Shown here one piece after another: positions 36,283 to 62,250 of a DNA stretch of 64,000 bases. A model generated the notes under the pieces. It was not told the DNA's origin. It did no database searches and saw only the letters and a list, made by a program, of their open reading frames with translations. The translations under genes were made by a program, and so were the position numbers. The DNA comes from Terriglobus roseus (GTDB lineage: Bacteria > Acidobacteriota > Terriglobia > Terriglobales > Acidobacteriaceae): NCBI RefSeq assembly GCF_900105625.1, contig NZ_FNSD01000001.1, positions 4,030,001 to 4,094,000 on the forward strand. The letters are read 5' to 3'. Position 1 is the first letter of the stretch. Every line of letters starts with the position of its first letter.

Positions 36283-36322
36283 TCGGTCAACTCGTTTCGG
36301 AGGGTAACTCCTTCTCCGAAGA

Positions 36323-36337: not shown

Positions 36338-36389
36338 AAGGCGAAGCTGCACTGCAAGAGCGCCGCCTGCTGGCACCGGAGGAATCCTT

Positions 36390-37706: not shown

Positions 37707-37960
37707 GGCAGCTTTGAGCCAAATATTCGCAAGATAAATACGCAAGGCTGCAGAAGTTTGCACAAATCACCTGTACTTCGCGGGCTGGGACGGATATTTG
37801 TGAGTCATCCCCCGTGTAGGCGGTCGCTACTTCTAGCGCTCCGCTTGCGGCTGTGCGTATGGCTCGCACGGCAAACCTAACTATTTTTCATCGGCCGCTT
37901 CGCACCCACGCTCAACACGTTCAAGCGCGATTGTGCCGACCTGCGTCAAGGAGTCCTTGC

Positions 37961-44732: not shown

Positions 44733-44785
44733 CTTGACCTCCCGGCGCTTCAGACACTCACAGGAGAAAGCAAGTAAGTGGCCAA

Positions 44786-46222
44786 TCAGATGCCGGCTCG
44801 ATCCAAACTTGAATAAGAGTCCAGGCCGCACCGCTTCATCTTCCCCAGGAAGTCGCGGTACCGCATGTTGAGTTGCTCCGCCGCCACCCGCCGATTCCAG
44901 TGAGTTCGGTTCAGCAGCAGTCGCAACTCTTCCGCTTCCATCGTCCTATCTACGGGAATGTCGTGCACCTCTGCAGCGTAGGTCGCTGGGCCGGGCAGGG
45001 CTGGGAAGATAACCATTGGATCTTGCACGCTGGCGCAACCGGGAACAATAAGGTCCGTCATCGCCTGTCCCTCATCACGGAGAATCAGATAGCGTTTGAT
45101 AAAGTTTGCGAACTCCCGCACATTTCCTGGCCAGCGATAGTTCATCATTTTCTCCATGAGTGACGGAGAATAATCTATTGGATCGACCTTATATGCGCGA
45201 GCAATGTCAGCAGTGATGTATTGGGCTAGATATGGGATCTCCATCCGACGCTCTCTAAGCGGAGGGATATGAAACGAGAAGACATTGAGACGGTAATACA
45301 AGTCTTCACGGAAGCGATTTCCTTTGATTGCTTCCGCAATATCGATATTGGTGGCGGCAATGATACGGACATCTACCTTTGACTCGCCGCGCGACCCTAA
45401 TCGGGAAAATGTCCCATCTTGCAACACATGAAGCAGCTTCGCTTGCAGTGCCGGACTCATCTCTCCCAGTTCATCAAGTAGCAGCGTCCCCCCGTCGCAC
45501 TGTTCAAACTTTCCGGGCTTTGATTTCGTCGCGCCGGAGAAAGCGCCTGCCTCATAGCCGAAGAGCTCGCTCTCAAGAAGGTCATGCGGAAGTGCAGCGC
45601 AATTCACCTTCATGAACGGGTGTGCAGATCGATGCGATAGGTGGTGCACAAGCTTCGCAACCATCTCTTTCCCTACGCCGCTTTCGCCTGTAATCAGAAC
45701 CGGAACATCGTGCGGGGCGATTGTCTCCAGCTGTCGCGTCACTTTAAACATGGCGGGACTTGCGGCCAGCATGAAGCCGCCACCAGCGAAGTGAACGACG
45801 TGCGGCATGGAACTGGCGAGCGCGTTCGCGGGCGACGGAGAAGTAGCGGGCGTTGCCGGCGCGTTACGCGGTCTGTTAATCCTTGCCACAATCTCCTGGA
45901 GAAGTTTCGCCCGGGAAACATTGCAAACATTGGACTGTGCAGATACTTGCACCAAGGAAACATCATCCGAAACAACAAGGATGGTTGCGTCAGTCGCTAG
46001 TTGCGAAAGCGCTTCAATCTTCTTGGCTTGAGTCTCTGCGGTTGAGCTGCTTTCGCAGATGATTAGACCAGGCGGCACACGGCTGTTCTCACAGATAGAC
46101 ACGGCTTCCTGGAAGTAGGAAGCGGAAGCCACGACTAAGTTGGGTAGACGTGATGCGCGATGCAGAATGTCGCTGATCTCGCGGTGGACACCAAGGGCTA
46201 GAATGAAAAAATGTGCAGTCAT
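44786..46222 (-). CDS. Sigma-54-dependent transcriptional activator (enhancer-binding protein)
   Basis: 478 residues from the ATG at 46222 (a GTG at 46249 is also possible; both sites are weak). Residues 1-120 resemble a receiver domain (FFILALGVHREISDIL) but with Glu in GLIICESSS where the phosphorylated Asp is expected and no acidic pair at the first strand. The AAA+ domain is intact: Walker A GESGVGKE, the sigma-54 contact loop as GAFSGA (usually GAFTGA), Walker B GGTLLLDELGEM and arginine finger region RFREDLYYRLNVF. The C-terminal Fis-type helix-turn-helix is RTHWNRRVAAEQLNMRYRDF. It resembles PrsR-type regulators of exosortase exopolysaccharide loci. It heads the operon with the deacetylase and both ligases, and sigma-54 promoters lie in front of the main polysaccharide and NRPS genes. 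Confidence 0.88.
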   Translation of the reverse strand: MTAHFFILALGVHREISDILHRASRLPNLVVASASYFQEAVSICENSRVPPGLIICESSSTAETQAKKIEALSQLATDATILVVSDDVSLVQVSAQSNVCNVSRAKLLQEIVARINRPRNAPATPATSPSPANALASSMPHVVHFAGGGFMLAASPAMFKVTRQLETIAPHDVPVLITGESGVGKEMVAKLVHHLSHRSAHPFMKVNCAALPHDLLESELFGYEAGAFSGATKSKPGKFEQCDGGTLLLDELGEMSPALQAKLLHVLQDGTFSRLGSRGESKVDVRIIAATNIDIAEAIKGNRFREDLYYRLNVFSFHIPPLRERRMEIPYLAQYITADIARAYKVDPIDYSPSLMEKMMNYRWPGNVREFANFIKRYLILRDEGQAMTDLIVPGCASVQDPMVIFPALPGPATYAAEVHDIPVDRTMEAEELRLLLNRTHWNRRVAAEQLNMRYRDFLGKMKRCGLDSYSSLDRAGI

Positions 46223-46358
46223 ATGGCTGGAACATAGTTGAACCAGCACAGTTACCTATGTCAAGACTTGTTTCGAGTTAGTCGTCGTTCTTAGGCCGCG
46301 CCAGAAGTTACAAGCGATAAATACGACGATATGACTTCTTAAAACTTAAGTAACGTTC

Positions 46359-49300
46359 CTAAAGACATGCCTCTGGTGTAAGGTTCCCGACATGCCGAGG
46401 CGTAGTTCCAAGGTAACGGTGCTTATGTGAATCGGATAAGTCGAAGGCTATGGCGTCAGCCATAATGCGCGAACCCTCCTCGTCAAACATGCCGGCATGA
46501 TCACCGGGCACACGGACGAGCGCGAAGCCACTCGGCAGGAGCGAACTCCAAGCCATGTCCTGAGGAAGCGTGCCGCCCACGGGCTGTTCGTCACTCTTGA
46601 AGATGACGACCGTGTCGCAGGCAAGGGGAGCCGGGCGATAGGTACTGACCGCCTCGCTCATCATCTGTTCGAAGCGTTCTTCGGAGGGCGGTATTGCCGG
46701 TGCGCTCTGCATGGAACCTTTCAAGGTGTGTAAGACCATGCGGAACGTATCCATGGCGGATTTACGAAGACCACTTGCGCTGGTAAAGCTTCGCAGAAGC
46801 TTGCGCGCATGCCAGTAGAGCCGGTGAGCGTAGTACGAGCTTCGTGCGGCGAACCTGCGTAAACCCTGAAGGTCTCGCCAGAATCGCGGAGCCCAGGCAT
46901 CAAGGACGAGGAGAATATCTACCTCTTCCCCGTCTTCCAGTAGCTTCCTGGCCACTTCCAGGGCGACCCATCCTGAGACACACCACCCGGCCAGACGGTA
47001 GGGGCCATTAGGCTGGGCCTTGCGTATATACGTGAGATAGCAGTTAGCGATCGAGATCATCGACACTTGCGTGCCCAGGGATAAGACTTCGGCTTCTCCG
47101 AGTTGAATGGTGTATACGGGCATCATAGGCCGTAGCGCGGCCGCCAACTTCCGGATGATCATGCTCTGGGAGATGACGAACAAGGGGGGTGCATCTCCTT
47201 CTGGCTGCACAGGAACCACCTGATAGGGCATAGCGGGTGAATCGGACGGCCTGAGTACCCGCCGGGCAAGGGCGCCGCACGTGGGGGCGAGGAAGATGTC
47301 AGCGGAGGTGATGCGCTGGCCGAAGGCCTTGAGGATATGCTTCTGCATTTCTGCAAGAAGCAGGGAGTGACCACCCAGAGCGAAGAAGTCGTCATCGATA
47401 GAGATCGCCTGACGCCGAAAGACGGACTGCCAGATGCCGAGCATCGATTGCTCGGCATCGCGGATCGCTCTTGGTTGCTCTTCGTTCGTCACGACCGCTT
47501 CGCCGGTCAGGCTTTCCGGATGCCGCGACGCTTCGCCGAGCGCGATGACGCGCTGGGAGCTTCCATGCAGGCTGCTGAGTGGAGTATGGCGCGAGAAAAG
47601 AAACTCAGACAGTGACACCTCAAAGTCGTCGAGCAAGGCTTCCGCAAAGGCCGCAGTGAAATGCCGCTGCGACGATGCAATCTGTGCGGTGACGACCTGG
47701 TCCCGCCGAACAATTGAAAGGTTCCAGAAGAAAGAGGAGGTCACTGTTTCGGTGCCAGTGGCGCGCAGGGTGACGGGCCCGGCTTCGAGCGAATGCACGA
47801 ATGCATCCTGATACAGGAAGCCGACGACGTTGGCGTGAGGTCCTGAAAGCACTATGGGAACGGCGCTCTCTACCAAGGTCTGCAGGGAGATCATATGCTC
47901 CGCGCCGCTAAGCAGTTCCTCCTGCGTCGCGATCAGTGCGCTTGCGTACGTCGTGCCAATCTCACCCGCTACAAACATGACCTCAGAGAACGGCCCTAAG
48001 ACACCGTCCGCCTCCGCAGGCCGATTCGCAGTCGGCACGGCCACAACACAATCGCCATTCGTATAGCGCCGCAGGAGGCAACGGTAAGCGGCGCAAAATA
48101 TGCTGGCTACCGTGACGTCACTCTCTTCTGCCACGGTTTGAATTGCGAGTACAAGCGTAGGATCCAGGACTCGACTCGACACGACACATCCCTGACCTAC
48201 AGGTGCATCGTGTGGCAGTGCGCTGGGCCTTTGCAGCTTCGACAGACGCTTGCTCCAGAAGTCGAGTGCTATCGTGTTGGTCTGCGCGGCCTCGCACTCG
48301 CGTGCCGCAACGCATTGTCCGTAGGTGATCTCGAGGGCAGGGAGAGAAGCTGCGCGTCCCTCCGCCAGTACGCGATAAAGCTCGGCGAATTCCTTCAGGA
48401 AGACGCCACAGGACCAACCATCCATCAGGGCGTGAGGAAACTCGAAGGCGAGTTCTGTGGCCGCTGATTCCTTCTTGATCAGTGCGCGCCAGCACGGCGC
48501 ATTCGCGAGTCGCGACGGAATCGACGCGATCTCAGAGGACCCGTCAGGCTGCCACGTCAGGTCCCCGTGAGCGTTCGAAACATCGATCAGCGGCACGTCG
48601 CAGTGCTGCCGCACATGCTGTACAAGATTTCCGGAAGCATCTTCAACCAGTTCGGTCCGCAGGATTTCATGACGGGCTTGGAGATAGTCCAAAGCGTCCA
48701 GCACGACCTGCGTGTCCAGCGTGCCCTCGATGTTAAAGCTCATTCGCAACCAGACACTGTCCGCATCTGGAGCGACGCTGTACATCGCGGCATATCTCTG
48801 CTGTGCGGGGGAAGCCGGGTAAGTGCGCTCGGACGGGGAAGCCGCGTCACTCGCTGCTGGGTGGCTTACGTATTTGAGATCTTCTACCGAGAGGTGTGGA
48901 TTGGCTGCCACCCTTTCCAAAGCCCGTACCAGTTGATGCAGACGCTGTTCCCGTGCAGCCGGCTCTTCCGCTACAGATGCAAGTTCCATCGATAGTCGCC
49001 ATCCATCTTGGCGCTCTACAAGGAATGTGGTGGAAGCGTGAAGGGCTCCGGGTGTAACGGATGGAAGGGGCGTCAAGCTCAATCCTGCGGCTACTCTCGG
49101 TTGGACAAAGTCCCGCTGCACGATGAACACTGCGTTGTAGAGCGCTGCCTCAGGGGTATCGTACGAGGAGAGCATATCCTCGATGCGATAGTTCCGTAGA
49201 TCCAGGGCCTCTGCCCAACGGTCTGCAAGCGCCGCGGCGAAGTCCGCTACCGTCTCCCCGCCGGGACGAGGTATGACGACGGGGATATAGTTTACGAGCG

Positions 49301-50168
49301 GGCCCACGATGTTCTGCGTCGTTGCATCCTCACGCGAGAGCACGGGCGTACCCACAACACTTCCGAGGTGATCCTGGCTGATGCAATAAACGGCGAATGC
49401 AAGTTGAGCAAAGGTAATACCCCAATCCGCTGCGATGTTACGCAGTGTGTGGGTGAGAGGCAGCGGAAGCAGGTGCGAGTGGATCGTTGCCGGCAGCGCC
49501 CTCAGGCATCCCGTGTCTGCAAGGGGGACGGGCTTGGTACCCGTCAACAGCGTCTTCCACGCTCTTGCGAGTTCTGCATAATCACTGCGACTTCGGAGCA
49601 GCTGCAACGAAGCGGCATAATCCGCAAAGCCCGGTGTAACAGCTATTGACTGACTGCCAGTTCCGTCGTCCCCATAGCGCTCCATCAAACGGTCCACAAG
49701 AAGGCCGACCGAATAGCCGTCAAAGATCGAGTGATGCACCGTGATGAGAAGGAAGTGCTGCGTCGCGCTCTGGCTCACCACCGTAACTCGGAGCAGCGGT
49801 GCCTCCTCCATGCGGAACGGGGTCTTCGCCTGCGCATAGGAATATGCCGTCAACGCGTCTTCGAACGTCTCTTCTGACCACGCATCGACCCACTTGACGG
49901 GCACTGCGCATCCCTCACTGTACTCACCCAACAGGATGCCTTCCTCCTCTCGGAAGTGGCAGCGTAGCAGGCCATCCTGCCGTATGACCTCATCGAGGGC
50001 AGCCTGGAACCGATCGCGGTCTACGTGGCCCATGAGTTGGAAGCGGACTGCAATATTCCATGCAGGATTTGCTGCGGCCTGCTTCTCCAGAGCCCAGAGC
50101 CTCTGTTGAAACGGGACCGCAGGGAATATAGCGGTTTCGGTGGGGGAAAGCACGAAGGTAGTCGCCAC
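46359..50168 (-). CDS. NRPS terminal protein, C-C-PCP-TE
   Basis: 1269 residues from a GTG at 50168 with GGAG six bases upstream; a TTG at 50195 right after the previous stop is the alternative. Domains: condensation C1 (about 10-430; HHSIFDG at 145-151), condensation C2 (about 460-890; first His of the motif replaced, PHALMDG with catalytic His 579), carrier PCP (about 905-985; GGHSLL with Ser 935), thioesterase (about 1005-1260). The thioesterase motif is GWCVSG, so the nucleophile position holds Cys 1063 rather than Ser; Asp in LLVLDAW and His 1224 in GDHAGM complete the triad. No adenylation domain is present, so the carrier must be loaded in trans. It should finish and release the product. 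Last gene of the operon. Confidence 0.9.
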   Translation of the reverse strand: MATTFVLSPTETAIFPAVPFQQRLWALEKQAAANPAWNIAVRFQLMGHVDRDRFQAALDEVIRQDGLLRCHFREEEGILLGEYSEGCAVPVKWVDAWSEETFEDALTAYSYAQAKTPFRMEEAPLLRVTVVSQSATQHFLLITVHHSIFDGYSVGLLVDRLMERYGDDGTGSQSIAVTPGFADYAASLQLLRSRSDYAELARAWKTLLTGTKPVPLADTGCLRALPATIHSHLLPLPLTHTLRNIAADWGITFAQLAFAVYCISQDHLGSVVGTPVLSREDATTQNIVGPLVNYIPVVIPRPGGETVADFAAALADRWAEALDLRNYRIEDMLSSYDTPEAALYNAVFIVQRDFVQPRVAAGLSLTPLPSVTPGALHASTTFLVERQDGWRLSMELASVAEEPAAREQRLHQLVRALERVAANPHLSVEDLKYVSHPAASDAASPSERTYPASPAQQRYAAMYSVAPDADSVWLRMSFNIEGTLDTQVVLDALDYLQARHEILRTELVEDASGNLVQHVRQHCDVPLIDVSNAHGDLTWQPDGSSEIASIPSRLANAPCWRALIKKESAATELAFEFPHALMDGWSCGVFLKEFAELYRVLAEGRAASLPALEITYGQCVAARECEAAQTNTIALDFWSKRLSKLQRPSALPHDAPVGQGCVVSSRVLDPTLVLAIQTVAEESDVTVASIFCAAYRCLLRRYTNGDCVVAVPTANRPAEADGVLGPFSEVMFVAGEIGTTYASALIATQEELLSGAEHMISLQTLVESAVPIVLSGPHANVVGFLYQDAFVHSLEAGPVTLRATGTETVTSSFFWNLSIVRRDQVVTAQIASSQRHFTAAFAEALLDDFEVSLSEFLFSRHTPLSSLHGSSQRVIALGEASRHPESLTGEAVVTNEEQPRAIRDAEQSMLGIWQSVFRRQAISIDDDFFALGGHSLLLAEMQKHILKAFGQRITSADIFLAPTCGALARRVLRPSDSPAMPYQVVPVQPEGDAPPLFVISQSMIIRKLAAALRPMMPVYTIQLGEAEVLSLGTQVSMISIANCYLTYIRKAQPNGPYRLAGWCVSGWVALEVARKLLEDGEEVDILLVLDAWAPRFWRDLQGLRRFAARSSYYAHRLYWHARKLLRSFTSASGLRKSAMDTFRMVLHTLKGSMQSAPAIPPSEERFEQMMSEAVSTYRPAPLACDTVVIFKSDEQPVGGTLPQDMAWSSLLPSGFALVRVPGDHAGMFDEEGSRIMADAIAFDLSDSHKHRYLGTTPRHVGNLTPEACL

Positions 50169-50195
50169 AGAGATCTCCAACTTAAAGCAGAACAA

Positions 50196-53100
50196 TCAGA
50201 ACTGACCGCCAAAATGCATGCCGCTGCCCGGTTGCGCGGCCAGAACTTCTGCGGGAACATGATGACTCGAAGAGGCCGTATCTGCGGCTGCGACAGAAAG
50301 TGCAGCGCAAACATTGCGGATGCTCTTCAGCTTCATTAAGTGGCGCGCCGTGATCGGCAGTCCCGCCTTACTGCCCTTGGAGGCGATCTGGAAGATATGT
50401 AGCGAATCTGCTCCAACCGCGAAGAGGGAGCGGTCAATGTCGACATCATCCAGGCCCAACGTCTCAGCACAGATCTTGGCCAGTACGGCCTCATCTTTGC
50501 TCCGCGGTGGCGGCGGGACGGTGAAGACATCCGGCTTTGGAACGATTTCAAGTCCGGGCAGAGATTTCCGGTCAATCTTGCCGTTCGCGGTCAGCGGCAG
50601 GCGGGCCAGAGTTACGAAAAAGGCCGGGACCATGTAGTCGGGCAGTAGTTGCGATAGCCGCTCCTGCAATACTTCTTCGGACAAGAGGTGTTCACTTTCC
50701 CGAACCTTCAGGAAGGCCACGAGGCGATCGTTCCCCAGGGTATCGGCTCGGAGGACCACGACGGCCTGTTCCACAGCGGGCATTGTTCGGAGCGCAGCCT
50801 CAATCTCTCCAGGCTCAATCCGGAAACCCCGCAGCTTGAACTGGTCATCCATGCGGCCAGCGAACTGGATGCAACCCTCGGCCGTCAGGGTCGCTCGATC
50901 TCCCGTGCGGTAAAGGTGCGCCGCGGATGACGGTGCGAAATGGTCTGGTACGAAGCGATCTTTTGTTCGCGCTGGGTCGCCGAAATAGCCCAACCCAACA
51001 CTTAGCCCGCCGATGCAGAGTTCCCCCGGTAAGCCGACAGGTAATGGGCGCAAATGCTGATCGAGGACATACAGGCTTTGCCGCGGAAGAGCGTGGCTGA
51101 TGCTGACGGGTCTGTCACCGGGCAGGACCTCCTGGTATCCAGACCAGATCGTCGTCTCCGTAGGACCGTAAAAATTCCACAGCCTGCCGCCAAGTACGTG
51201 GAGCCGATCAGCGAGCGCCCTGTCCCAGGCTTCACCGCCGCAGATCATCGATAGCGTTGGCTGTGGAATGTTCGCATCGGCAAGCATCCGCCAAGTGGAA
51301 GGGGTAGCCTGCATCATGTTGATCTTCGCGGCGTGCAGCATGCGGCTGAGTCGAGCGCCATCAGCAGCGTCCGCCCTCGAAGCGATGACAACGGTTCCCC
51401 CATACATCAGCGGCATCAGCAGTTCCATCGCTGCGATGTCAAAACTGATCGTTGTGACAGCCATCAGTCGAGTGTCTGCCGTGCAATGGACCACCTCGGC
51501 AATCCCCGCGATTGAATTCAGCAGGTTGCCGTGCGTGATGGAGACACCCTTCGGCTTACCCGTCGAACCGGAAGTGAAGATCACATAGGCAACATCCGCT
51601 GCGCCTGGAAGCGCGGTGGGATTGGGGGCGTCGCTGTCCGTGATGCTTGAGATCAGGAGCTTGGGCAAAGCGAGTTCCTGCGGCACCTGTGCGTGTTCCT
51701 CGGACGTGATGACACACGATATCGGCAAGCTCTGAGTGATTGCCTTCGTCCTGTCCATCGGCATGGACGGGTCAAGGGGAATGTAGGTGGCACCGCTCCG
51801 CATGACGCCCAGAAGCGCCGAGATCATGTCCGGCGAGCGATCGAGGAGAAGTGCGACATAGTCTCCGGAGCCGATGCCCGCTTCGCGCAGTCGAGTTGCG
51901 ATCGCCATCGATCGCCGCTTGAGCTCCGCATAGGTGAGCTTGCGCCCATAAAACTCAATGGCAGGAACACCCGGCGTAGCGCCGGTCTGGCGGTCGATCC
52001 ACTCAAGAACAGATTGCCCCGCAATCCCGGCGCCGTTGCTGCGCAGAGCCAACGGGAATGCTTCAGTCGTTGCGAGTGACGTGTCAGCGACGACGCCATC
52101 GGAATGCTCCAGGAAGGACTGGAGCAGATGCTGATACGCCTGCATCCAGTTACCAACCTGGTCTTCCGTATAGCGGTCCGAGTTGTAGTCGCACTCCAAC
52201 CGGAGTCCTTCCGGTGCTTCCACGATGTTCAGGAAGAGGTCAAAGTTTACAAACGCTTTCGCATTGGCTCGCGCGCTGGCCTGCAATGTCTTGAAGGACG
52301 AGAGGGAGCCCATCTTCTCGAGATTGAATTGCAACTCTGAAATAGGCAGCCGGCCTGCTTGTCGGGGAATGCCAAGCTCGTGCACCATGGTGCCGTAAGT
52401 GACCTCTTGATGGTCGTATGCATTCAGGATCTGCCGTTTGGTGCCTACCATGTAAGAGGACAGCTTCTCCTCGCTGCTGGTCCTCGTGATAATCGGCAGC
52501 AGATGAACGCAATGGCCAATCATCTCGCCGTTCGGGAGCGATGCCTGTTGCGCTGCAGGGATCAGCACCGCCAGTTCATCCTGCCCGGACAATTTCATCA
52601 GCACAAGAGCCCATGCACTGAAGAGCGTCGAGAACAGCGTGCATCCCACGGCTGCGCCCATCCGGCGTAGCTGCTGGGTTAGTTGCGATGGGCATTGAAC
52701 AAACAGCGTGTTGCCACGGTAGGTCCTTTCTGCAAGCGGCATCTTCTGCTGTGGCAGGTTCGGCAGCTCCGGGATGCTTGTAAGCTGCTCGCGCCAGAAG
52801 GTCAAATCCTTCTTGTCTGAAGGTGCTTGGGCTGCTTTCTCCTGGGCATAGTCCAAGAACGATGCCGCAACAGGCAAGTCAGGCGCGCGCATCTCCACGG
52901 CCGCTGTATAGAGTTCCCCCAGGTCTGAAAGCATCACGTTGGTGGACCATCCATCACAAACGATGTGGTGTGCTGTTAGTACCAGTGTGGAGGCATCCTT
53001 GTCTGTCCGAAGTAGGCAGGCGCGCACCAAGGGACCGTTATAAAGATCGAACGGTGTCTCCGCGTCCGTTGCGATGAAGCGTGCGACGGCTTCATTCGGA

Positions 53101-56100
53101 TTCGAGACATCTTGCAGATCGATGACAGCGAGGTCTGCCGATGTAGCCCCCAGCACCTCCATCATGGGCTGGTTGCGTTGAAGAACGGCGCGCATCGCTG
53201 GATGCCGTAGACAAAGCTGCTTCCAGGCAGCTTTGAGCTTTTCTTCGTCGCACACCCCTGCCAGTGTCACGCGGCACGATTCATTGAAGACGCAGTTGGC
53301 CGCGTCGCTCGCCTGGGCGGCCATCAGTACTTCCATCTGAGCGTCTGTAAGTGGAGCAATGTCCGGCCCCTGAGGCAGGGTCGAATGAGAAGACGGCAAC
53401 AGACCAACACGCTGCAGGTCCACGATGCTGTCGCGGAGAGCATCCAGAAAGAGTTGCAAATCCTGGCTCGAATGCTCGGTCGTGAGATACAGAGGGAAGT
53501 GTTCGAGCGCATAGATTCCCCGGTGGCGCAGCAAGACGAACAGCAGGCCCGAACTCCGGATTTCGGCTGGTATCGCCAGATACATCACACTGCCAAGATG
53601 CTCCATCGTGAATGGCACATCTAGGTCGTGGAAGAGCTGCGCGGCCTGCTGCACAAACCAGTCGGCATTCGCATTGATCGTGGAATACAGCTCATCGCCA
53701 CCATCACGGATGTGCTCCAGGGTAGCCTTCGTCGCGGCAATGGCGAGCGGATGCCGTACAAAGGTTCCCGCGAAGAATGTCATGCCTGCTTCTGGCAAAG
53801 AGTCATCGCCGAAGGTCCATGCGCCACCGTCCAATGCGTCCATGAAGCGCGGGGACCCTGCGAGTATGCCGATCGGCATCCCTCCTCCGGCGACCTTGCC
53901 GTAGCTGGCCATATCGGCGCGAATGCCAAAGTGAGCCTGCGCTCCGCCCGCATGTAGCCGGAATCCCGTAACGACTTCATCGAACACCAGCGCGATCTTG
54001 GTGCGCTTGGTGATCGCGCGAAGATTATGCAGGAACTCAAACGGTTGCAGGTCGGGATGACGACTCTGCACCGGTTCAACGATCACCGCAGCCATCTCAT
54101 CGGCATGCTCCTTCAAATAAAGGAGGGCCTCCGGGTCGCCATAGTCGAAGACAACAATGTTGCTGAGGTTATTCGTTGGAATACCCGGTGCACTGGGAAG
54201 CGTGACGGGCTGACCATTGCGGATGAGGCCGCGCACCAGCACTTCGTCGAACTGCCCATGGTAATCGCCGGCAAAGAACATCACCTTGTCGCGCCCGGTC
54301 ACAGTACGGGCCAGGCGCATTGCCGCCATCACGGCTTCCGATCCGGTATTGCAGAACGTGACGCGCTCCATGCCTGTCAGCTCAGAGACCAGTTCCGCCG
54401 TTGGACCCGCCAGGGGCGTCTGTGGACCAATGGCAATGCTGTCCGCCAGTTGTTCCTGGACGGCTTTCAGAACGAAGTCTGGACTGTGGCCAAACATCGT
54501 CGGACCGAAGCCGTTCACGAAGTCAATGTATTCGTTCCCATCCACATCCCAAAGGCGGGAACCCTTGGCGTGCCCCACCACGAGCGGATAAGAGATCTCC
54601 TTCCACTCCTTGCGAAAACCGGTCATATTGCGAGGGTCTGCGTGGACGGTGCGGAACTGCTGTGTGTGTTGTTTCGAGCCGGCGGTCTTGGTCGAATAAC
54701 CTGCGATCAGGCTCGCCACAAAAGCCTTTTGCTCTGGTGTCTCCTCGGGACCGGCGTCCGTAGGAGGCGTTTTCCGGAAACGTGGTGAACTGCGCAGCGC
54801 AATATCCACGATGGGAGTGTCAGCCGTGTTGATTGCTGCTGTGTCTGGAGCGTTCGCCGGGGCCGGCGCAGCGTCCCCATCCATCTGCGAGAGAGCGCTC
54901 AACTGTTGCTGGAAGAGCGCGTTCATCGCCAGTAACTGCTGCTGCACGAGGTCCTTCAGGGATGCTCCCGATCCGCTTCCTGCGCTTACTGCGACTTCGG
55001 CAGGCGGACGCGTCGGTGCAGGGGTGGGCTCCGCGGGGAGAGTGGCATCCAGGTGCTGAGCCAGCGCAGCAATACTCGACAGATCGTTCAGCAGGTCCCG
55101 GAAGGAAATGTCGACCGCAAACGTCCGTTGCAATTTCGTTGCAAGCTGTGTCAGGAAGAGAGAGTCAAGCCCCAGCTCCAGAAAGCTGGTGTCTTCGTTG
55201 TCTTCACTCAGATCTACACCGGCCAGCTCTGTGAGGATGTCAGCGATCTGACGAGAGAGTTTTTCAGCACGTGCGTTGGTGCGTGGCAGGCAGGCAGGTG
55301 TAGACATGTTGACGGTCTCCTGAAGTGGAATAGGAACTTGCAGTATTGGCGTGATGGCAGGTGTCGCTTGTGATGTCGCGATGAATTGCCGGCGTTGAAA
55401 GCTGTATCCGGGAAGCGGGATGCGTGTGGGGTTGTCGTTTTCATAGAAGCGTGGCCAATCGATCTCCACGCCTGCCGACCACACCGCGCCAACCGTGGTC
55501 GCGATCGCCTGATCGTCCTGCGTTGTGGAGAGCGGCGACGGAAGCGATGGAAAGATGCTGGCGCTGGATGGCATCTGTCGACGCATGAGCGATGTGAGAA
55601 TGTTCCCGGCGCCACACTCGATGAAGACCATCTCCGGTTCGGTCTCACGCAGGGTGCGGACGGCACCCGCGAAGTCAACGGTATGCCGGCAGTGCTCTGC
55701 CCAGTACCGTGGTGACATCGCCTGCGCGGCCGTGAGCTGCTGACCCGTCACAGTTGAGATGATGGGGACTTCCGGAGCCCTGAGAGTGAATACCGCGAAC
55801 AAGGTCTCCAGCGGTTCCATGACCGCATCCATCGCTCGCGAATGGAAGGCGTGGGATGTCTTCAGCGACTGGCTTTGAATGTCGAGATTGGAGAACTGTA
55901 AGCGGGCCGCAGCAATGTCGTCCGGGCTTCCTGCAATGACGATGGCGTTCGGTGCGTTGATCGCTGCAATGTCGAGGCCCGCAAGCGTCGCAATGACGTC
56001 CTGCACCTGTTCAAGACGAGCCATCACTGCAAGCATCTCTCCAGTTGGCCGCGAGTCCATCAGCGCTCCACGCTGCGCCACGGCGTAGAGTGCATCCTGG

Positions 56101-58028
56101 AGTGGGATCACGCCGGCAAGACATGCAGCAACCAGTTCCCCTAAGCTATGGCCGACCATGCGCGCCGGGAGAACCCCCCAATGAATCCAGAGGCGAGCCA
56201 TCGCATACGCAACGATGAAGAGTGCCGGCTGCGAATACTTTGTCATGCGCAGTTGTTCTGCTAATGCCTCATCGGTGCGCTCACCCAAGAGAAACTTCCG
56301 CATATCCACACCGACGATCGGCTCGAGAAACTCAGCGCATTCATTCACGATGTTGCGATAGAGCGGTTGAGAACGATACAGGCCGGATCCCATGCCCGGG
56401 TGCTGCGCACCCTGCCCCGGAAAGAGGAACGCAACCTTCGGCGGATGTGATGAGGAGGAAGCCTTGATGGCACTCTCTGCGAAGGTCCAACCGCCCTCAT
56501 CTGCCCAGGAAGCGGTGACAGCCAGACGCTTCGACAGCCGCTCTCGTCCACAAGCCAGCGTGAAAGCGGCATGCGGCATCGTGCAACGCTCACTTGTCGC
56601 AATGGCTTGTTGCACGGCCAGCCAAGTCTCTCTTGCCGCCTTCTCCGTCGCGCCGGAGATCACCAGGACCTCCGAGGTCCGCAGGGAAGGAGTGTCGGTT
56701 ACAGGCAGCGCCTCACGAAGCACCAAGTGAACATTTGTGCCGCCGAGCCCAAAGGCACTGACCCCGGCGTACCGCGGTGTTCCGTTCCGCTTCCACGTCC
56801 TCGGTTGACCATCGAAGACGAATTGCCGTGGATTGAGCGGAAGGTTGGCGTTTGGCTTGGAGAAATACTTCGTGCCGGGGATTGCCTCGCGCTCAAGGGT
56901 GAGCGCGGCCTTGATCAATCCCGTGACGCCGGCAGCTACGTCCAGATGTCCGACGTTGCCCTTGACCGACCCGAGGACGCAGGGCTCTCCTTGCCGCTCT
57001 GCACCTTCGAAGGCCGCGTTCAGACCGCTGATTTCAATGGGATCACCCAGCGGCGTGCCTGTTCCGTGACATTCGATGTAGCCAACCTGGCTCGCAGTCA
57101 CTTCCGCATCGCGCAGAGCCATGGAGATGGCGGCGCTTTGACCTGTGGCGCAGGGCGCGGCAAAGCCCATCCGCTCCGATCCATCATTCGAAATGCCGAC
57201 GCCGCGTATGACTGCGACGATGTGATCGCCATCACGGATGGCGTTGAGCGCCTTCTTCAACACCACTACGGCAGCACCCGATCCGAAGACCGTACCAGAG
57301 GCTTCGGCATCGAATGGCCGGCAGTGACCGTCGCTCGAGACGATGCCGCCTGGGTCATGAGCATATCCACGCCGCTCAGGAAAGGTAACGGAAACGCCTC
57401 CCGCGACTGCCATGTCGGCTTGGTCAGCCCGCAGGATGTCGCATGCCTGTGCTACCGCGAGCAGTGACGTGGAGCATGCTGATTGCACTGTCATCACCGG
57501 ACCGGTGAAGCCAAGTTTGTAGCCGATACGCGTGGCAAGAAAGTCCTGACCGTTCCCAACCAATTCCGAGAACGAGCCCACTTGGTAACGATGAACCATG
57601 TTGGTGAGAAACGTCGGGTCGTTCGACAGGACGCCGAGCATGTACGTGTTGATGCTGCAGCCGACGCAGAGCCCAATCCTTTGCGAGTGGGTGCGCGGTG
57701 CGTAACCAGAGTTTTCAAGAGCTGACCAAACAACCTCCATCAGCACTCGCTGCTGGGGATCGGTGACCTCTGCTTCTCGGGGAAGAAATCGGAATAGGTC
57801 GGCATCAAAGTCTATTGCGTGATCGATCAAACCACGGCTGCGAACGTAGTTCGACGCTGTACGATCTGCAAGCGGAATGGATGAATCGATCTCTTCGGCA
57901 CTCAGTCGGGTAACCGTGTCGATTCCGTCCATCAGGTTTTGCCAGAACGACTCAACATCGTTCGCGCCGGGAAAGCGGCCGCCCATGCCAATGATGGCGA
58001 TGTCATTCTCAGTGAAGGTGTGTCTCAT
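50196..58028 (-). CDS. Hybrid PKS-NRPS: KS-AT-ACP-aminotransferase-C-A-PCP
   Basis: 2610 residues. KS (about 10-440) has Cys 185 in QSACSTSLLAV and the two His (ECHGTGT, GNVGHLD). AT (about 530-820) has GHSLGE with Ser 628 and HAFHS at 726-730, the malonyl-CoA form. ACP Ser is 956 (GLDSL). A class III aminotransferase (about 1110-1540) has SYGKVAGGG with PLP Lys 1378. C (about 1550-1970) has HHIVCDG at 1687-1693. A (about 1985-2480) has FTSGSTGKPKG, and PCP Ser is 2542 (GADSLHIF). No ketoreductase is present, so the beta-keto group is free for amination, as in MycA/ItuA and McyE. Reading the A-domain pocket gives D-I-M-Q-I-G-F-I-W-K, near the glycine code. Start overlaps the previous gene's stop by four bases. 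Confidence 0.93.
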   Translation of the reverse strand: MRHTFTENDIAIIGMGGRFPGANDVESFWQNLMDGIDTVTRLSAEEIDSSIPLADRTASNYVRSRGLIDHAIDFDADLFRFLPREAEVTDPQQRVLMEVVWSALENSGYAPRTHSQRIGLCVGCSINTYMLGVLSNDPTFLTNMVHRYQVGSFSELVGNGQDFLATRIGYKLGFTGPVMTVQSACSTSLLAVAQACDILRADQADMAVAGGVSVTFPERRGYAHDPGGIVSSDGHCRPFDAEASGTVFGSGAAVVVLKKALNAIRDGDHIVAVIRGVGISNDGSERMGFAAPCATGQSAAISMALRDAEVTASQVGYIECHGTGTPLGDPIEISGLNAAFEGAERQGEPCVLGSVKGNVGHLDVAAGVTGLIKAALTLEREAIPGTKYFSKPNANLPLNPRQFVFDGQPRTWKRNGTPRYAGVSAFGLGGTNVHLVLREALPVTDTPSLRTSEVLVISGATEKAARETWLAVQQAIATSERCTMPHAAFTLACGRERLSKRLAVTASWADEGGWTFAESAIKASSSSHPPKVAFLFPGQGAQHPGMGSGLYRSQPLYRNIVNECAEFLEPIVGVDMRKFLLGERTDEALAEQLRMTKYSQPALFIVAYAMARLWIHWGVLPARMVGHSLGELVAACLAGVIPLQDALYAVAQRGALMDSRPTGEMLAVMARLEQVQDVIATLAGLDIAAINAPNAIVIAGSPDDIAAARLQFSNLDIQSQSLKTSHAFHSRAMDAVMEPLETLFAVFTLRAPEVPIISTVTGQQLTAAQAMSPRYWAEHCRHTVDFAGAVRTLRETEPEMVFIECGAGNILTSLMRRQMPSSASIFPSLPSPLSTTQDDQAIATTVGAVWSAGVEIDWPRFYENDNPTRIPLPGYSFQRRQFIATSQATPAITPILQVPIPLQETVNMSTPACLPRTNARAEKLSRQIADILTELAGVDLSEDNEDTSFLELGLDSLFLTQLATKLQRTFAVDISFRDLLNDLSSIAALAQHLDATLPAEPTPAPTRPPAEVAVSAGSGSGASLKDLVQQQLLAMNALFQQQLSALSQMDGDAAPAPANAPDTAAINTADTPIVDIALRSSPRFRKTPPTDAGPEETPEQKAFVASLIAGYSTKTAGSKQHTQQFRTVHADPRNMTGFRKEWKEISYPLVVGHAKGSRLWDVDGNEYIDFVNGFGPTMFGHSPDFVLKAVQEQLADSIAIGPQTPLAGPTAELVSELTGMERVTFCNTGSEAVMAAMRLARTVTGRDKVMFFAGDYHGQFDEVLVRGLIRNGQPVTLPSAPGIPTNNLSNIVVFDYGDPEALLYLKEHADEMAAVIVEPVQSRHPDLQPFEFLHNLRAITKRTKIALVFDEVVTGFRLHAGGAQAHFGIRADMASYGKVAGGGMPIGILAGSPRFMDALDGGAWTFGDDSLPEAGMTFFAGTFVRHPLAIAATKATLEHIRDGGDELYSTINANADWFVQQAAQLFHDLDVPFTMEHLGSVMYLAIPAEIRSSGLLFVLLRHRGIYALEHFPLYLTTEHSSQDLQLFLDALRDSIVDLQRVGLLPSSHSTLPQGPDIAPLTDAQMEVLMAAQASDAANCVFNESCRVTLAGVCDEEKLKAAWKQLCLRHPAMRAVLQRNQPMMEVLGATSADLAVIDLQDVSNPNEAVARFIATDAETPFDLYNGPLVRACLLRTDKDASTLVLTAHHIVCDGWSTNVMLSDLGELYTAAVEMRAPDLPVAASFLDYAQEKAAQAPSDKKDLTFWREQLTSIPELPNLPQQKMPLAERTYRGNTLFVQCPSQLTQQLRRMGAAVGCTLFSTLFSAWALVLMKLSGQDELAVLIPAAQQASLPNGEMIGHCVHLLPIITRTSSEEKLSSYMVGTKRQILNAYDHQEVTYGTMVHELGIPRQAGRLPISELQFNLEKMGSLSSFKTLQASARANAKAFVNFDLFLNIVEAPEGLRLECDYNSDRYTEDQVGNWMQAYQHLLQSFLEHSDGVVADTSLATTEAFPLALRSNGAGIAGQSVLEWIDRQTGATPGVPAIEFYGRKLTYAELKRRSMAIATRLREAGIGSGDYVALLLDRSPDMISALLGVMRSGATYIPLDPSMPMDRTKAITQSLPISCVITSEEHAQVPQELALPKLLISSITDSDAPNPTALPGAADVAYVIFTSGSTGKPKGVSITHGNLLNSIAGIAEVVHCTADTRLMAVTTISFDIAAMELLMPLMYGGTVVIASRADAADGARLSRMLHAAKINMMQATPSTWRMLADANIPQPTLSMICGGEAWDRALADRLHVLGGRLWNFYGPTETTIWSGYQEVLPGDRPVSISHALPRQSLYVLDQHLRPLPVGLPGELCIGGLSVGLGYFGDPARTKDRFVPDHFAPSSAAHLYRTGDRATLTAEGCIQFAGRMDDQFKLRGFRIEPGEIEAALRTMPAVEQAVVVLRADTLGNDRLVAFLKVRESEHLLSEEVLQERLSQLLPDYMVPAFFVTLARLPLTANGKIDRKSLPGLEIVPKPDVFTVPPPPRSKDEAVLAKICAETLGLDDVDIDRSLFAVGADSLHIFQIASKGSKAGLPITARHLMKLKSIRNVCAALSVAAADTASSSHHVPAEVLAAQPGSGMHFGGQF

Positions 58029-59848
58029 GCCGCGCCTCCGAATTGCTTCATCGACGCAGTCACAGGCTGCCGGACTGCGTGCGCCGACATCACTTCTCGC
58101 TTTTGTATGTACTCAGTGATCTTTGCAATCGTTGGCAGGGAGAAGAGTTCCGGAAGCGCGGGTGCGTAGCCGGATAGTTTTCGCAGTTCCGCATGCATCC
58201 TCAGCAGGCTCAGCGAATCTCCGCCGAGTTCGAAAAACGGGGCGTGCTCATCGCTGACGGGATGCCCGAGAACCATCGACCACACGGTCTGGATCTGCTC
58301 GGGCAAGCTGTCATTAGTCAAAACAACCGCTTGTTGTAATGACTCAAACGCAACTTGCTTCAATTGTTCCCGATCGATTTTTCCGTTGTCATTCAAGGGC
58401 AGGTCCGGCATGGCAATGAAGATGTTGGGAAGGGCTGCGGGCATGAGTGTCGACGACAGCGCACGACGAAGTTCTGCTTCTCTGTCCGGTCCGTCCCAGA
58501 CGATGAATGCAACCAGCTTTTTGTCGCCCTCTCCCAGCTCAACGACAACAGGAACGCAGTCCCGTACGCCCTGCACCTGCTTGATCGCTTGCGTCACATC
58601 GTCCAATTGCACGCGTTGTCCAAGGAGTTTGACCTCGGAATCCAGCCGGCCCAGGAACAGGAGGTTGCCGTCAGCGTCTCGGCGTACCAGGTCGTTGGTG
58701 CGATAGCTTGACCAAACGGTGGTGCCACTCTTTTGCGAACTGAAACGCCGTGCCGTCAGTTCGGGATCATGTAGGTAGCCGAGCGCAACGCCGTCGCCTG
58801 AAACGATCAACTCTCCCGGCTGTCCTTCGTCCACGTCTTCGCCGTCGGAACCAACGATCCGTATCGTCGTTCCGTGGATGGGTCTACCAATTGGCAGCGA
58901 ATCTTCGCCGTCGTCTGCAACCCCTGCATAGCAGCAGGTGAATACCGTGTTTTCAGTTGGGCCGTAACCGTTCACCAGGCGCAGCCGCGGGAAGCTCCGC
59001 TTGACCGCGCGGAAGAGGCCGGGATGGATCACATCACCGCCAACGAGCAGTTGTTGCAAAGTGTCGAAGATCTGCTGATGTTCTCTGGCCGCGGCATGAA
59101 AAAGTCCGGATGTCATCCAGAGCGTGCTGACGCCATCGCGGCGAACGATTTCCCCAAAGTCATCGAACGACAGGGGACGATCCGGCGCGATCATAAGCGA
59201 ACCTCCGGTCAGCAATGGGCCCCAGAGTTCGAACGTGGATGCGTCGAATGTTAGTGGTGAGTGCAGCAGGGTGCGGTGCCTGGGACCAAACGCAAAAGCT
59301 TCCTGTGGCTGGACCAGACGCAGGACGCCTCTCTGCGGAACGACCACGCCCTTGCGGTCGCCGGTGGATCCGGAGGTGAAGAGCACGTAGAGCGGCGCGT
59401 CACGACTGATGGCTGGGAGCTGGATCGTCTTCTCCGACTCTTCCCAGTTGTAGGGAAGAACCAAGACCTCTTTGCCCTGGAGAACATCCAGGCCGCTGCG
59501 TATTGTCGCAATGAAGCGAATGCTGTGCTGATCGAACAGAGCGCCTGTTGCAGGATCTTCAAGGGCGACTGGGACGTACACAGCGCCAAGGTACGCAAGG
59601 CCCATGATGCAGGCCACTATCTCCCACGAGCGGCGAGCGTCCACTGCAACCAGATCACCGGCTTTCACGCCTCGTGTGCGGCAGTGGCACGCGAAGCCCA
59701 GCGCAGCCAGACGCAGGGTACGGTAAGACATCTGGCCAGTCTCGTGCACAACGGCGACATCATGGCAGAAGGCCGCGGCGATACGTTCAAATCGAGCCGC
59801 AACGCTGTCCTCATCGGCCAGGCGAGTTAAAACGAAGTCGTTACGCAT
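58025..59848 (-). CDS. NRPS loading protein, A-PCP (valine-like code)
   Basis: 607 residues from the ATG at 59848 (GGAG nine bases upstream), eight bases inside the end of the epimerase gene. The adenylation domain (about 15-495) has FTSGSTGDRKG, FDASTFELWG, NGYGPTENTVF, a GD/GE..I region and NGKIDREQL with the final Lys. Pocket residues read by alignment from memory are D-A-F-W-L-G-G-V-F-K, close to the valine code DAFWIGGTFK. The carrier domain has Ser 545 in GGDSLSLL. With no condensation domain it most likely starts the line, passing valine to the ketosynthase of the hybrid protein whose gene it overlaps by four bases. The C-terminal tail of about 60 residues could be a docking element. 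Confidence 0.88.
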   Translation of the reverse strand: MRNDFVLTRLADEDSVAARFERIAAAFCHDVAVVHETGQMSYRTLRLAALGFACHCRTRGVKAGDLVAVDARRSWEIVACIMGLAYLGAVYVPVALEDPATGALFDQHSIRFIATIRSGLDVLQGKEVLVLPYNWEESEKTIQLPAISRDAPLYVLFTSGSTGDRKGVVVPQRGVLRLVQPQEAFAFGPRHRTLLHSPLTFDASTFELWGPLLTGGSLMIAPDRPLSFDDFGEIVRRDGVSTLWMTSGLFHAAAREHQQIFDTLQQLLVGGDVIHPGLFRAVKRSFPRLRLVNGYGPTENTVFTCCYAGVADDGEDSLPIGRPIHGTTIRIVGSDGEDVDEGQPGELIVSGDGVALGYLHDPELTARRFSSQKSGTTVWSSYRTNDLVRRDADGNLLFLGRLDSEVKLLGQRVQLDDVTQAIKQVQGVRDCVPVVVELGEGDKKLVAFIVWDGPDREAELRRALSSTLMPAALPNIFIAMPDLPLNDNGKIDREQLKQVAFESLQQAVVLTNDSLPEQIQTVWSMVLGHPVSDEHAPFFELGGDSLSLLRMHAELRKLSGYAPALPELFSLPTIAKITEYIQKREVMSAHAVRQPVTASMKQFGGAA

Positions 59849-60839
59849 GGATAGCAACTCCGGGTATCACTTGAGGCACAAGAATTTCAGCGGATATTTG
59901 TTGGCGGTACCACTCGACCGTTCGTTCCAACCCATCGAAAAGCTTGACGCTAGGACGATATCCAAGATCCTGAGCAGCAGCGCGGATGTCTGCAAGGGAA
60001 TCGCGCACATCTCCAACGCGCGCTTCCAGGAAGCGTGGCGCTCCCTGAAACCCAGTGATACGTTGCAACATCGCGTAGACGTCGAGCAACGATGCACTGT
60101 TCCCGCAGGCAACGTTGTAGACCTTGCCGGATACAGCGTTGGCGGGGGCGCGGCCGGCAAGAAGATTCGCTTCGACCACGTTGTCAATGAAAGTGAAGTC
60201 GCGTGATTGCGTCCCGTCGCCAAAGATTGACGGCGACCGCCCCGCAAGCATTTCAGTGATGAACTTGGCGAGCACACCCGAGTACGGCGAATTCGCAGCC
60301 TGGTGCGGACCGAAGACATTGAAGTATCGGAGGCAAATCGTTTCCAATCCGTACACCGCGTGAAAGCTCTGCATGTAATGCTCGCCGCAAAGCTTCTGCA
60401 CGGCATAGGGCGAGATGGGAGCCGCCCGCATCGTCTCCTGCTTCGCGCTACCTGTGACGTCGCCGTACGCGGATGATGATGCGGCATACACAACGCGCTT
60501 CACTCCACAACGGCGGGCGGCCAGCAACAGGTTGAGCGTGCCGTCTACGTTGGAGCGATGGCTTGTCAGTGGATCACGGACGGACTTCGGGACTGAAGGG
60601 ATCGCCGCCTCGTGAAAGACAACATCGACACCGTCGCAAAGCCGTAAGAGTGACCTCTCGTCCAGCAGATCGGCCTCGGTGAATTCGACATAGTCCTCGA
60701 GCCCCGAAAGGTTCGCGAGAGACCCCGTCGAGAGGTTATCCATGCCACGCGTGTGTATTCCCTGTTTTGCAAGCTCTCTCGCAATGGATGACCCGATAAA
60801 GCCAGCGGCGCCGGTGATCAAAATACGATGGGACGTCAT
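59841..60839 (-). CDS. NAD-dependent nucleotide-sugar 4-epimerase (WbpP/TviC-like)
   Basis: 332 residues from the ATG at 60839 (GGAGAG eight bases upstream); the frame runs 43 codons further without support. An extended short-chain dehydrogenase: ILITGAAGFIGSSIARELA is the NAD loop, GMDNLSTGSLANL the second strand, VVYAASSSAYGD holds the catalytic Ser, and SPYAVQKLCGEHYMQSF has Tyr and Lys of YxxxK. The pattern fits UDP-N-acetylglucosamine or UDP-N-acetylglucosaminuronate C4-epimerases such as WbpP and TviC better than GalE. With the dehydrogenase encoded just upstream it would supply a UDP-N-acetylgalactosaminuronate-like donor. Its end overlaps the NRPS loading gene by eight bases, so sugar and peptide genes are translationally linked. 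Confidence 0.87.
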   Translation of the reverse strand: MTSHRILITGAAGFIGSSIARELAKQGIHTRGMDNLSTGSLANLSGLEDYVEFTEADLLDERSLLRLCDGVDVVFHEAAIPSVPKSVRDPLTSHRSNVDGTLNLLLAARRCGVKRVVYAASSSAYGDVTGSAKQETMRAAPISPYAVQKLCGEHYMQSFHAVYGLETICLRYFNVFGPHQAANSPYSGVLAKFITEMLAGRSPSIFGDGTQSRDFTFIDNVVEANLLAGRAPANAVSGKVYNVACGNSASLLDVYAMLQRITGFQGAPRFLEARVGDVRDSLADIRAAAQDLGYRPSVKLFDGLERTVEWYRQQISAEILVPQVIPGVAIHA

Positions 60840-60852
60840 ACCAGTACTCTCC

Positions 60853-62217
60853 CTATGCCTGCCATACGTTGTTTCGAGCAAGACCTGCGGTGGCGTTGCG
60901 CGTGTCCACGACGAGGGCCGCGTGTTCCACGATCCATGCGTAGTCGTAGGAGGAATGATTGGTCGCAATCAGTACACAGTCATACGACGAGATGTCATCC
61001 AGAGAAACACTCGCAAGATTCAGTGCATAGTGCCGGCCCTGCGAAACTTCCGGGAAGTATGGGTCGTTGTAGGCCACCTCGGCGCCTAGCTTCCGCAGCA
61101 GCTCAATCAGCGTGAGCGACGGGCTCTCCCGAAGGTCGTCGATATCCTTCTTGTAGGCAAGGCCAAGGACCAACACCTTGCTGCCGTTTACGGTCTTATG
61201 CTGCTGGTTCAGCGCGCGCGTTACGACGTCAATCACGCGGTACGGCATCTCCGTATTGATCTCGCCTGCGAGCTCGATGAACCGCGTGGAGAAATCCACT
61301 TCGCGGGCCTTCCAGGAGAGATAGAAGGGATCAATGGGAATACAGTGGCCACCCAGTCCCGGCCCGGGATAAAACGGCTGGAAACCAAAAGGCTTGGTTG
61401 CGGCAGCCGCAATAATTTCCCAGATATCAAGGTTGATCCGCTGGCACAGTAACTTGAGTTCATTGACGAGCGCGATGTTGACACACCGATAGATGTTCTC
61501 CAGTAACTTCGTCATCTCGGCTGCGCCGGTGCTTGAGACCTTGACGGTGCGAGTGAAGATTGTGCTGTAAAGGTCCGACGCAATCTGCTGGCTCAACGTG
61601 CACGGTGCTCCCACTACCTTCGGAACATCCTTTCGCGCAACCAGGTCATTGCCAGGATCTTCCCGTTCGGGAGAATAAGCCACGTGGAAGCAAAGCTCTT
61701 CCTGCGAATGGTCGCGGAAGCAATTCAGCTTTGAGCCTCTCTCCAGCAGCGGAATCAAAACCTCTTCCGTCGTTCCTGGATAAGTGGTGCTTTCAAGAAC
61801 GATCAACTGCCCGGGTTGAAGGTACGGTGCGATCGCGCGTGCGGTCTCTTCAATAAAGCTTAGGTCTGGCTCGCGATGCTCGTTCAGCGGTGTTGGCACA
61901 CAAATGATGACGGCGTCCATCTCGCGGATAGCGGAAAAATCGGCGGTGGCGCGCATGCCGCTGTTGACCATGGCTGCGATTTCTTCGGAGGTGATTCTTT
62001 GGATATAGGACCGGCCCTCGTTCAGCGCGGCCACCTTGCGGGTGTCAACGTCGAATCCTGTCATGGTGAATCCGGCGTCGGCGAGCAGCATGGTGAGTGG
62101 CAGGCCAACGTAGCCCAGACCGACGATGCCTATCGATGCAGTGCGACCGATGAGCTTTCCAGTTAATTCCGTTGCTGACAGAAAGCGCTGATCGTGTTCG
62201 GCGGTGAGCAGGTTCAT
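60853..62217 (-). CDS. UDP-sugar 6-dehydrogenase (WbpA/WbpO/TviB-like)
   Basis: 454 residues from the ATG at 62217 (AAGGAA eight bases upstream). Three UDP-glucose/GDP-mannose dehydrogenase domains: an NAD Rossmann head (TASIGIVGLGYVGLPLTMLL and VIICVPTPLNEHREPD), a central domain with ELCFHVAYSPEREDPGNDL and ENIYRCVNIALVNELK, the nucleophile motif GLGGHCIPIDPFYL with its Cys, and a C-terminal UDP-binding domain (LVLGLAYKKDIDDLRESPSL). The TPLNEHREPDLSF segment and overall form point to the UDP-N-acetylhexosamine branch (WbpA, TviB), which makes the uronic acid by two oxidations. It lies between a glycosyltransferase and an epimerase in the same operon, 13 bases before the latter. Confidence 0.9.
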   Translation of the reverse strand: MNLLTAEHDQRFLSATELTGKLIGRTASIGIVGLGYVGLPLTMLLADAGFTMTGFDVDTRKVAALNEGRSYIQRITSEEIAAMVNSGMRATADFSAIREMDAVIICVPTPLNEHREPDLSFIEETARAIAPYLQPGQLIVLESTTYPGTTEEVLIPLLERGSKLNCFRDHSQEELCFHVAYSPEREDPGNDLVARKDVPKVVGAPCTLSQQIASDLYSTIFTRTVKVSSTGAAEMTKLLENIYRCVNIALVNELKLLCQRINLDIWEIIAAAATKPFGFQPFYPGPGLGGHCIPIDPFYLSWKAREVDFSTRFIELAGEINTEMPYRVIDVVTRALNQQHKTVNGSKVLVLGLAYKKDIDDLRESPSLTLIELLRKLGAEVAYNDPYFPEVSQGRHYALNLASVSLDDISSYDCVLIATNHSSYDYAWIVEHAALVVDTRNATAGLARNNVWQA

Positions 62218-62250
62218 TGGTCTCGTTCCTTTTCGTGTCAATGCGTAAAC

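Follow-up and report, generated by a model that had tools for sequence, protein, structure and literature searches.

Why would a modular assembly line for a small peptide-polyketide be encoded among the genes for an exopolysaccharide? The question is raised by a 64,000-nucleotide stretch of Terriglobus roseus DNA (NCBI RefSeq assembly GCF_900105625.1, contig NZ_FNSD01000001.1, positions 4,030,001 to 4,094,000), hereafter the window, in which three genes at 46359 to 59848 encode a hybrid of nonribosomal peptide synthetase (NRPS) and polyketide synthase (PKS). A preliminary description had predicted that these proteins build a diamino unit from valine and malonate and join it to glycine; it did not mention the surrounding cluster of exopolysaccharide genes. 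We propose, at a confidence slightly short of even, that this amino-acid-started, aminotransferase-bearing line is functionally part of the exopolysaccharide locus and that its product may be carried on, or exported with, the polysaccharide. What we observed is gene organisation, domain content, motifs, gene overlaps and a recurring neighbourhood, and nothing else; the proposed link between product and polymer is drawn from gene context.

The line consists of three intact open frames on the minus strand (58025 to 59857, with an ATG at 59848; 50196 to 58028; and 46359 to 50195, where the junction sequence makes a GTG at 50168 the likely start). The loading protein (58025 to 59848) holds an adenylation (A) domain and a peptidyl carrier protein (PCP). 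The hybrid protein (50196 to 58028) runs ketosynthase (KS), acyltransferase (AT), acyl carrier protein (ACP), aminotransferase (AMT), condensation (C) domain, A and PCP, with the aminotransferase at residues 1111 to 1530 (53439 to 54698). The terminal protein (46359 to 50195) has the order C-C-PCP and thioesterase (TE), without an A domain. This order, proposed in the preliminary description, is borne out by Pfam, which finds AMP-binding and PP-binding in the first protein; ketoacyl-synt, Acyl_transf_1, Aminotran_3, Condensation, AMP-binding and two PP-binding stretches in the second; and two Condensation stretches, PP-binding and Thioesterase in the third. As also stated there, no ketoreductase separates the KS from the aminotransferase, and the Pfam table of the line's proteins lists no ketoreductase family at all. 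Alignment of the A domains returned pocket letters identical to those read before, DAFWLGGVFK in the loading protein and DIMQIGFIWK in the hybrid protein. The latter is glycine-like, the glycine code being, as we assume, DILQLG(L/M)IWK. The former is read as valine-like, in agreement with a printed table for a cyanobacterial line that assigns DALWLGGTF to valine (PMC11356792). The HAFH motif on which a malonyl-specific AT had been predicted is indeed present in that domain, and the cysteine and histidine motifs of the KS are in place when the translation is read by eye.

The terminal protein carries the condensation motifs HHSIFDG and PHALMDG. Its TE reads GWCVSG, with cysteine instead of serine at the nucleophile position, a feature that had previously gone unmentioned; of the 58 distinct TE sequences that we collected, 26 share the cysteine, in several phyla, and the other 32 have serine. 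A genome-wide count gave three condensation domains, all within this line. The loading and hybrid genes overlap as ATGA, and the ATG of the loading gene overlaps the stop of a sugar epimerase gene by 8 bases. A C-terminal docking motif was also considered and dropped: although FGG stands close to the C-terminus of each of the two upstream proteins, the only one of 27 loading frames with a similar motif was that of the window, and among 42 PKS frames there were 2, a count in which the window's protein figures twice. Within the loading gene, moreover, the motif overlaps a Shine-Dalgarno-like GGAGG.

The overlap ties the line to the epimerase gene. Preceding the line on the same minus strand are, by Pfam and NCBIfam, a GT4 glycosyltransferase (62251 to 63468), a nucleotide-sugar 6-dehydrogenase (60853 to 62241; TIGR03026 above its cut-off) and the NAD-dependent sugar epimerase (59841 to 60839), which is of C4-epimerase, UDP-hexosaminuronate type and whose best NCBIfam score, below cut-off, is TviC-like. 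On the other side, about 110 bases separate the line from a sigma-54-dependent activator (44786 to 46249, minus strand; Pfam and NCBIfam). Then come, on the same strand, an XrtA-system polysaccharide deacetylase (43587 to 44831; NCBIfam TIGR03006 at 310.2 bits, cut-off 276.2) and two PaaK/CapK-like adenylate-forming enzymes (42169 to 43590 and 40808 to 42172), which score below the NCBIfam cut-off and have no Pfam match. Farther out, family matches point to a Wzy_C protein of the O-antigen ligase/polymerase type (36255 to 37706, plus strand), a polysaccharide flippase (34666 to 36357, minus), another GT4 glycosyltransferase (33571 to 34683, plus), an Sfp/HetI-type phosphopantetheinyl transferase (31448 to 32281, minus) and a TIGR04325-family methyltransferase (30567 to 31442, minus). 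Past the right edge of the window lie PGT and Wza genes, together with frames read as glycosyltransferases, Wzc-like and kinase proteins. With Wza, PGT, flippase, Wzy_C and glycosyltransferases all present, the region has the export and assembly genes of an XrtA locus; among its proteins, the XrtA O-glycosylation ligase model TIGR03097 reached 100.7 bits, below its cut-off of 188.1.

Does this neighbourhood recur in other genomes? For each genome, we took the distance that separates the aminotransferase from the closest PGT (PF02397) or Wza (PF02563) gene of its contig; expected counts were derived from gene counts and genome sizes. The tail probabilities assume independent genomes and even gene spacing; the genomes are in fact not independent, and the tails carry no correction for kinship or for gene clustering. 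In a first, hand-chosen set of 22 named genomes, such a gene stood within 20 kb in 14, against an expected 1.12 (tail 9e-14). After removal of the six genomes in which PGT or Wza had already been seen, 8 of 16 remained (expected 0.86), and leaving out all ten that bore any polysaccharide label still gave 5 of 12 (expected 0.64, tail 2e-4). A second set was drawn by a fixed rule, which admitted the remaining loci whose contigs reach 80 kb or more (32 in all), and scored for PGT only: 10 of the 32 had one within 20 kb (expected 0.83, tail 4e-9), or 6 of 25 without the seven labelled earlier (expected 0.64, tail 3e-5). For 17 Acidobacteriota, measured from the line, the corresponding figure was 7 (expected 1.9, tail 0.0014). 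A kinship-thinned count of 7 of 10, in which eight genomes were taken as one clade, was discarded since the third protein had been mapped in only G418 and G160 of the eight.

Lysobacter concretionis, Lysobacter sp. MMG2, Rhodanobacter and Dyella each have a single PGT gene, located 7.6 to 11.2 kb from the aminotransferase; five single-PGT genomes of the second set include two with the gene at 7.7 and 13.0 kb and three with it on another contig. In Dyella and Rhodanobacter, the dehydrogenase, epimerase, phosphopantetheinyl transferase, PGT and assembly line follow one another in the same order on one strand, with other frames between. A Wza gene no farther than about 21 kb away is present in Maribacter, Haloferula, Euzebyella, Nitratireductor, Rhizobium, Gemmobacter, Paraburkholderia and Novosphingobium. 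Homologs of the TIGR04325 methyltransferase stand near the lines of Lysobacter concretionis, Nitratireductor and Rhizobium. A GMC-type oxidoreductase (so assigned by Pfam for Dyella) has homologs near those of Dyella, Nitratireductor and Rhizobium. Both enzymes may tailor the product.

Several results weigh against a role in the polysaccharide. No such gene was found within 20 kb in 8 of the 22, 22 of the 32 (PGT only) and 10 of the 17 genomes. At 10 kb, the 16 genomes left after the first removal gave only 1 (expected 0.44). As a small control, nine other TE-bearing NRPS frames of more than 850 residues from 16 of these genomes were scored, and 2 of the 9 fell within 20 kb; compared with 14 of 22, this gives a one-sided Fisher value of 0.04. 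Because of this control, part of the polysaccharide link may be general to NRPS lines. The two control frames near PGT genes (G446 C77 near 193373 and G447 C2 near 266462) are outside aminotransferase lines, and the link may thus extend beyond them. Furthermore, the KS of the window is divergent, as described below. The terminal TE fits a line for a free metabolite equally well, and both the product and the attachment enzyme are hypothetical. Since the control and the unlabelled counts are weaker than the headline figures, our confidence in the polysaccharide reading is lowered accordingly.

Some of these points also count for the strongest alternative, in which the line would make a small peptide that contains a vicinal diamine and is secreted in free form (aminostatine-like, for example a protease inhibitor, a metal ligand or an antibiotic) and would merely share the operon or region, perhaps with joint regulation in surface growth. 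Besides the TE and the relatives that lack a PGT or Wza gene nearby, it has in its favor that a published near-relative was interpreted as a free-peptide synthetase (PMC11356792). However, the overlap with the epimerase gene and the enrichment beside polysaccharide genes in several phyla speak against it. We regard a free peptide as a serious possibility, though a less probable one than a product bound for the polysaccharide.

If the product does belong to the exopolysaccharide, its synthesis could proceed as follows. The nearby phosphopantetheinyl transferase would arm the carriers, and the A-PCP protein would, by its pocket, load valine. The KS and AT would add one malonate to give 4-amino-5-methyl-3-oxohexanoyl-ACP, as suggested by their intact motifs, the lack of a ketoreductase and the existence of fused relatives. 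The aminotransferase would then exchange the 3-oxo group for an amine, and C-A-PCP would, again judging from the pocket, add glycine. C-C-PCP-TE may add a further residue, speculatively a glycine loaded in trans, or may merely pass the chain on. These steps would yield 3,4-diamino-5-methylhexanoyl-glycine, to which a second glycine is perhaps added. The cysteine-type TE would either free this chain or transfer it to an amine; a cysteine nucleophile might favor the transfer, which is a chemical argument rather than evidence. The attachment might be an amide, formed either with a hexosaminuronic acid that the dehydrogenase and epimerase of the same operon would make or with an amino sugar whose amine the deacetylase would free.

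The amination step leans on the closeness of the aminotransferase to a characterized domain. Its nearest solved chain is mycosubtilin synthase A (MycA; 6kfm) at E 1.5e-117, and the lysine read as binding pyridoxal phosphate (PLP) is invariant in 13 aligned relatives; the domain is thus a class III aminotransferase of the MycA type. It is also a member of the glutamate-semialdehyde aminomutase superfamily, whose name-giving enzymes act on vicinal amino-carbonyls via a diamine intermediate. Since the predicted substrate is itself a vicinal amino-ketone, transposition to a 3-amino-4-oxo acid is conceivable. In that case, the domain would work as an in-line aminomutase, passing through the vicinal diamine to a transposed 3-amino-4-oxo acyl chain without an outside amine donor. 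Such a course appears improbable to us: the aminomutases match at about 1e-57, far behind MycA, and the MycA aminotransferase takes its amine from glutamine (PMC3870968).

The predicted chemistry of the line is plausible and widespread, and the claim that it is unique is wrong. The preliminary description held that the known aminotransferase hybrids do not act on an amino acid that has just been loaded. Many relatives, however, carry domains for loading amino acids, and valine plus malonate plus aminotransferase has already been predicted in Pseudanabaena (PMC11356792). A scan of named genomes with the aminotransferase alignment gave at least 581 confirmed candidates; the best 80 came from Pseudomonadota, Bacteroidota, Cyanobacteriota, Verrucomicrobiota, Planctomycetota, Acidobacteriota and others, and many of these have an A-PCP beside, or fused to, KS-AT-ACP-AMT-C-A-PCP. 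We collected 96 distinct KS domains, 79 with an aminotransferase downstream. An A domain precedes the KS in the same frame in 37 of these 79, and in G067 the whole order C-A-PCP-KS-AT-ACP-AMT-C-A-PCP is on a single frame, which upholds the proposed logic of amino acid, KS and aminotransferase. Of 58 scored loci, 21 have a code of the valine pattern directly before the KS; past the aminotransferase, a code matching DI[LMV]Q stands in 42 of 63. Because valine-type codes, A-KS fusions and DI[LMV]Q codes recur across relatives, the chemistry predicted for the window is a general one. In the window, the gene order likewise places A-PCP directly ahead of KS-AT-ACP-AMT.

A KS phylogeny, which had been suggested as a check, supports the expectation weakly at best. 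In a quick tree of the 96 KS domains with SH-aLRT support, the window KS falls in an 85-row clade (support 93) made up mostly of KS from aminotransferase lines, with seven N-terminal and two inner KS that lack an aminotransferase. The ten-row clade outside it (support 100) is itself mixed: it holds inner and N-terminal KS of long polyketide lines, and also four KS of aminotransferase lines and two KS behind an A domain. The window KS sits on a long branch (0.99) and takes no firm position in this quick tree.

It had also been stated that no acidobacterial example was known. Using residues 950 to 1690 of the hybrid protein as the query and a threshold of E <= 1e-70, we found relatives in 24 of 396 Acidobacteriota genomes, that of the window included; G014 and G034 came from a separate search. 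Already in 2013, a survey had named Acidobacteria as one of the phyla whose lines of this kind contain PLP domains (PMC3870968). Among the 24, longer and different lines occur in G357, G067, G133, G433, G403, G337 and G267. The three-protein layout of the window is seen in G250, G407, G094, G301, G257, G418 and G160, while G096 and G014 have it in a varied or broken form; these layouts come from pairwise searches that missed some carrier domains (for example, in G418). In G096 (C46), the frame 1051 to 10395 has a second A domain interrupted by about 380 residues, as if by an inserted tailoring domain.

The third protein varies among the acidobacterial lines, being C-C-PCP-TE, C-A-PCP-TE or C-PCP-TE. 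Where it has an A domain of its own (G301, G257 and G014), the code is again glycine-like, which leads us to suggest, tentatively, loading of glycine in trans for the window line. Loading codes were readable in nine lines of this kind: seven have DFWNIGMVHK, which we take to be the threonine code, G014 has DFFCVGMVHK, and only the window genome has a valine-like code. That the line is degenerate or departs from its domain order (module skipping or other substrates) and makes neither the diamine nor the glycine unit, as the long KS branch, the PHALMDG motif in place of HHxxxDG in the second C domain and the A-less third protein might suggest, is very unlikely, given that the three frames are intact with key residues kept, that C-C-PCP-TE recurs in G250, G407 and G094 (whose C-C proteins have HHxxxD in only one of the two C domains) and that A-less third proteins are found in others.

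Some further features of the region may be recorded here. A 972-residue protein with TIG/IPT repeats is encoded at 37853 to 40771, within the polysaccharide region. A 279-residue frame at 32262 to 33101, beside the phosphopantetheinyl transferase gene, gave no Pfam or NCBIfam match and no meaningful match in the PDB. Pectin-type genes stand on both sides of the polysaccharide region: GDSL/pectin-acetylesterase-like and oligogalacturonate-lyase-like proteins on the left (22761 to 25386), and, on the right, frames judged by eye to encode polygalacturonase, acetylesterase and pectinesterase (74959 to 79058, counted from the start of the window).

Taken more broadly, these lines could form a multi-phylum family of amino-acid-started PKS-NRPS systems largely dedicated to exopolysaccharides, in which beta-amino (vicinal diamine) peptidyl groups serve as cationic decorations; we advance this only tentatively and consider it less probable than not. 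Peptidyl cationic decoration by such lines, held with the same reserve, would be a polysaccharide modification for which we found no description. If true, modular peptide-polyketide chemistry would serve polymers of the envelope or biofilm and not free metabolites alone, and a testable function would be at hand for numerous orphan gene clusters across several phyla. It would also provide natural building blocks of the aminostatine type and aminotransferase domains that act on amino-acid-derived chains. In addition, searches for free compounds alone would overlook such products.

Among known systems, XrtA/exosortase-type loci resemble the window in combining an XrtA deacetylase above cut-off with Wzy_C, flippase, Wza, PGT and glycosyltransferases in one region; to our knowledge, an NRPS-PKS line is not among their usual parts. 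In the open-licence literature, as covered by titles and abstract openings, we found no description of NRPS-PKS lines linked to polysaccharide genes. The sheath glycoconjugates of Sphaerotilus and Leptothrix, in which a polysaccharide bears short amide-linked peptides, resemble the proposed product in being a peptide-bearing polysaccharide; the same literature, at the same depth, yielded no NRPS-PKS line tied to them.

With regard to the assembly line itself, MycA of the iturin family likewise has a beta-aminotransferase domain between a PKS ACP and an NRPS C-A-PCP. The MycA chain starts from a fatty acid, whereas the window line, as judged by its pocket, starts from an amino acid on A-PCP and is encoded in a polysaccharide locus. 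McyE, of microcystin synthesis, has the order KS-AT-ACP-AMT-C-A-PCP, which is that of the window's hybrid protein. NdaF, of nodularin synthesis, shares it too (PMC11356792); unlike the window line, these enzymes act on a long Adda chain and have no amino-acid starter (PMC11356792). As judged by sequence, a fatty-acyl or aryl chain of the iturin or Adda type is not the expected substrate in the window, since the partner protein is an A-PCP with an amino-acid pocket. A near-relative is the Pseudanabaena galeata line (OA858_07105 to OA858_07090), which, in PMC11356792, is given a valine-type A-PCP, a KS, an AT with HAFH, a PCP, an aminotransferase, NRPS modules and a TE, with beta-amination of valine plus malonate predicted. 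In contrast to the window line, it has a C domain in its first module, its next residues are not glycine, and it is known as a prediction; that paper's main text nowhere uses the word polysaccharide. The line in T. roseus is an NRPS-PKS hybrid of the aminotransferase type with an amino-acid starter and an unusual genomic home.

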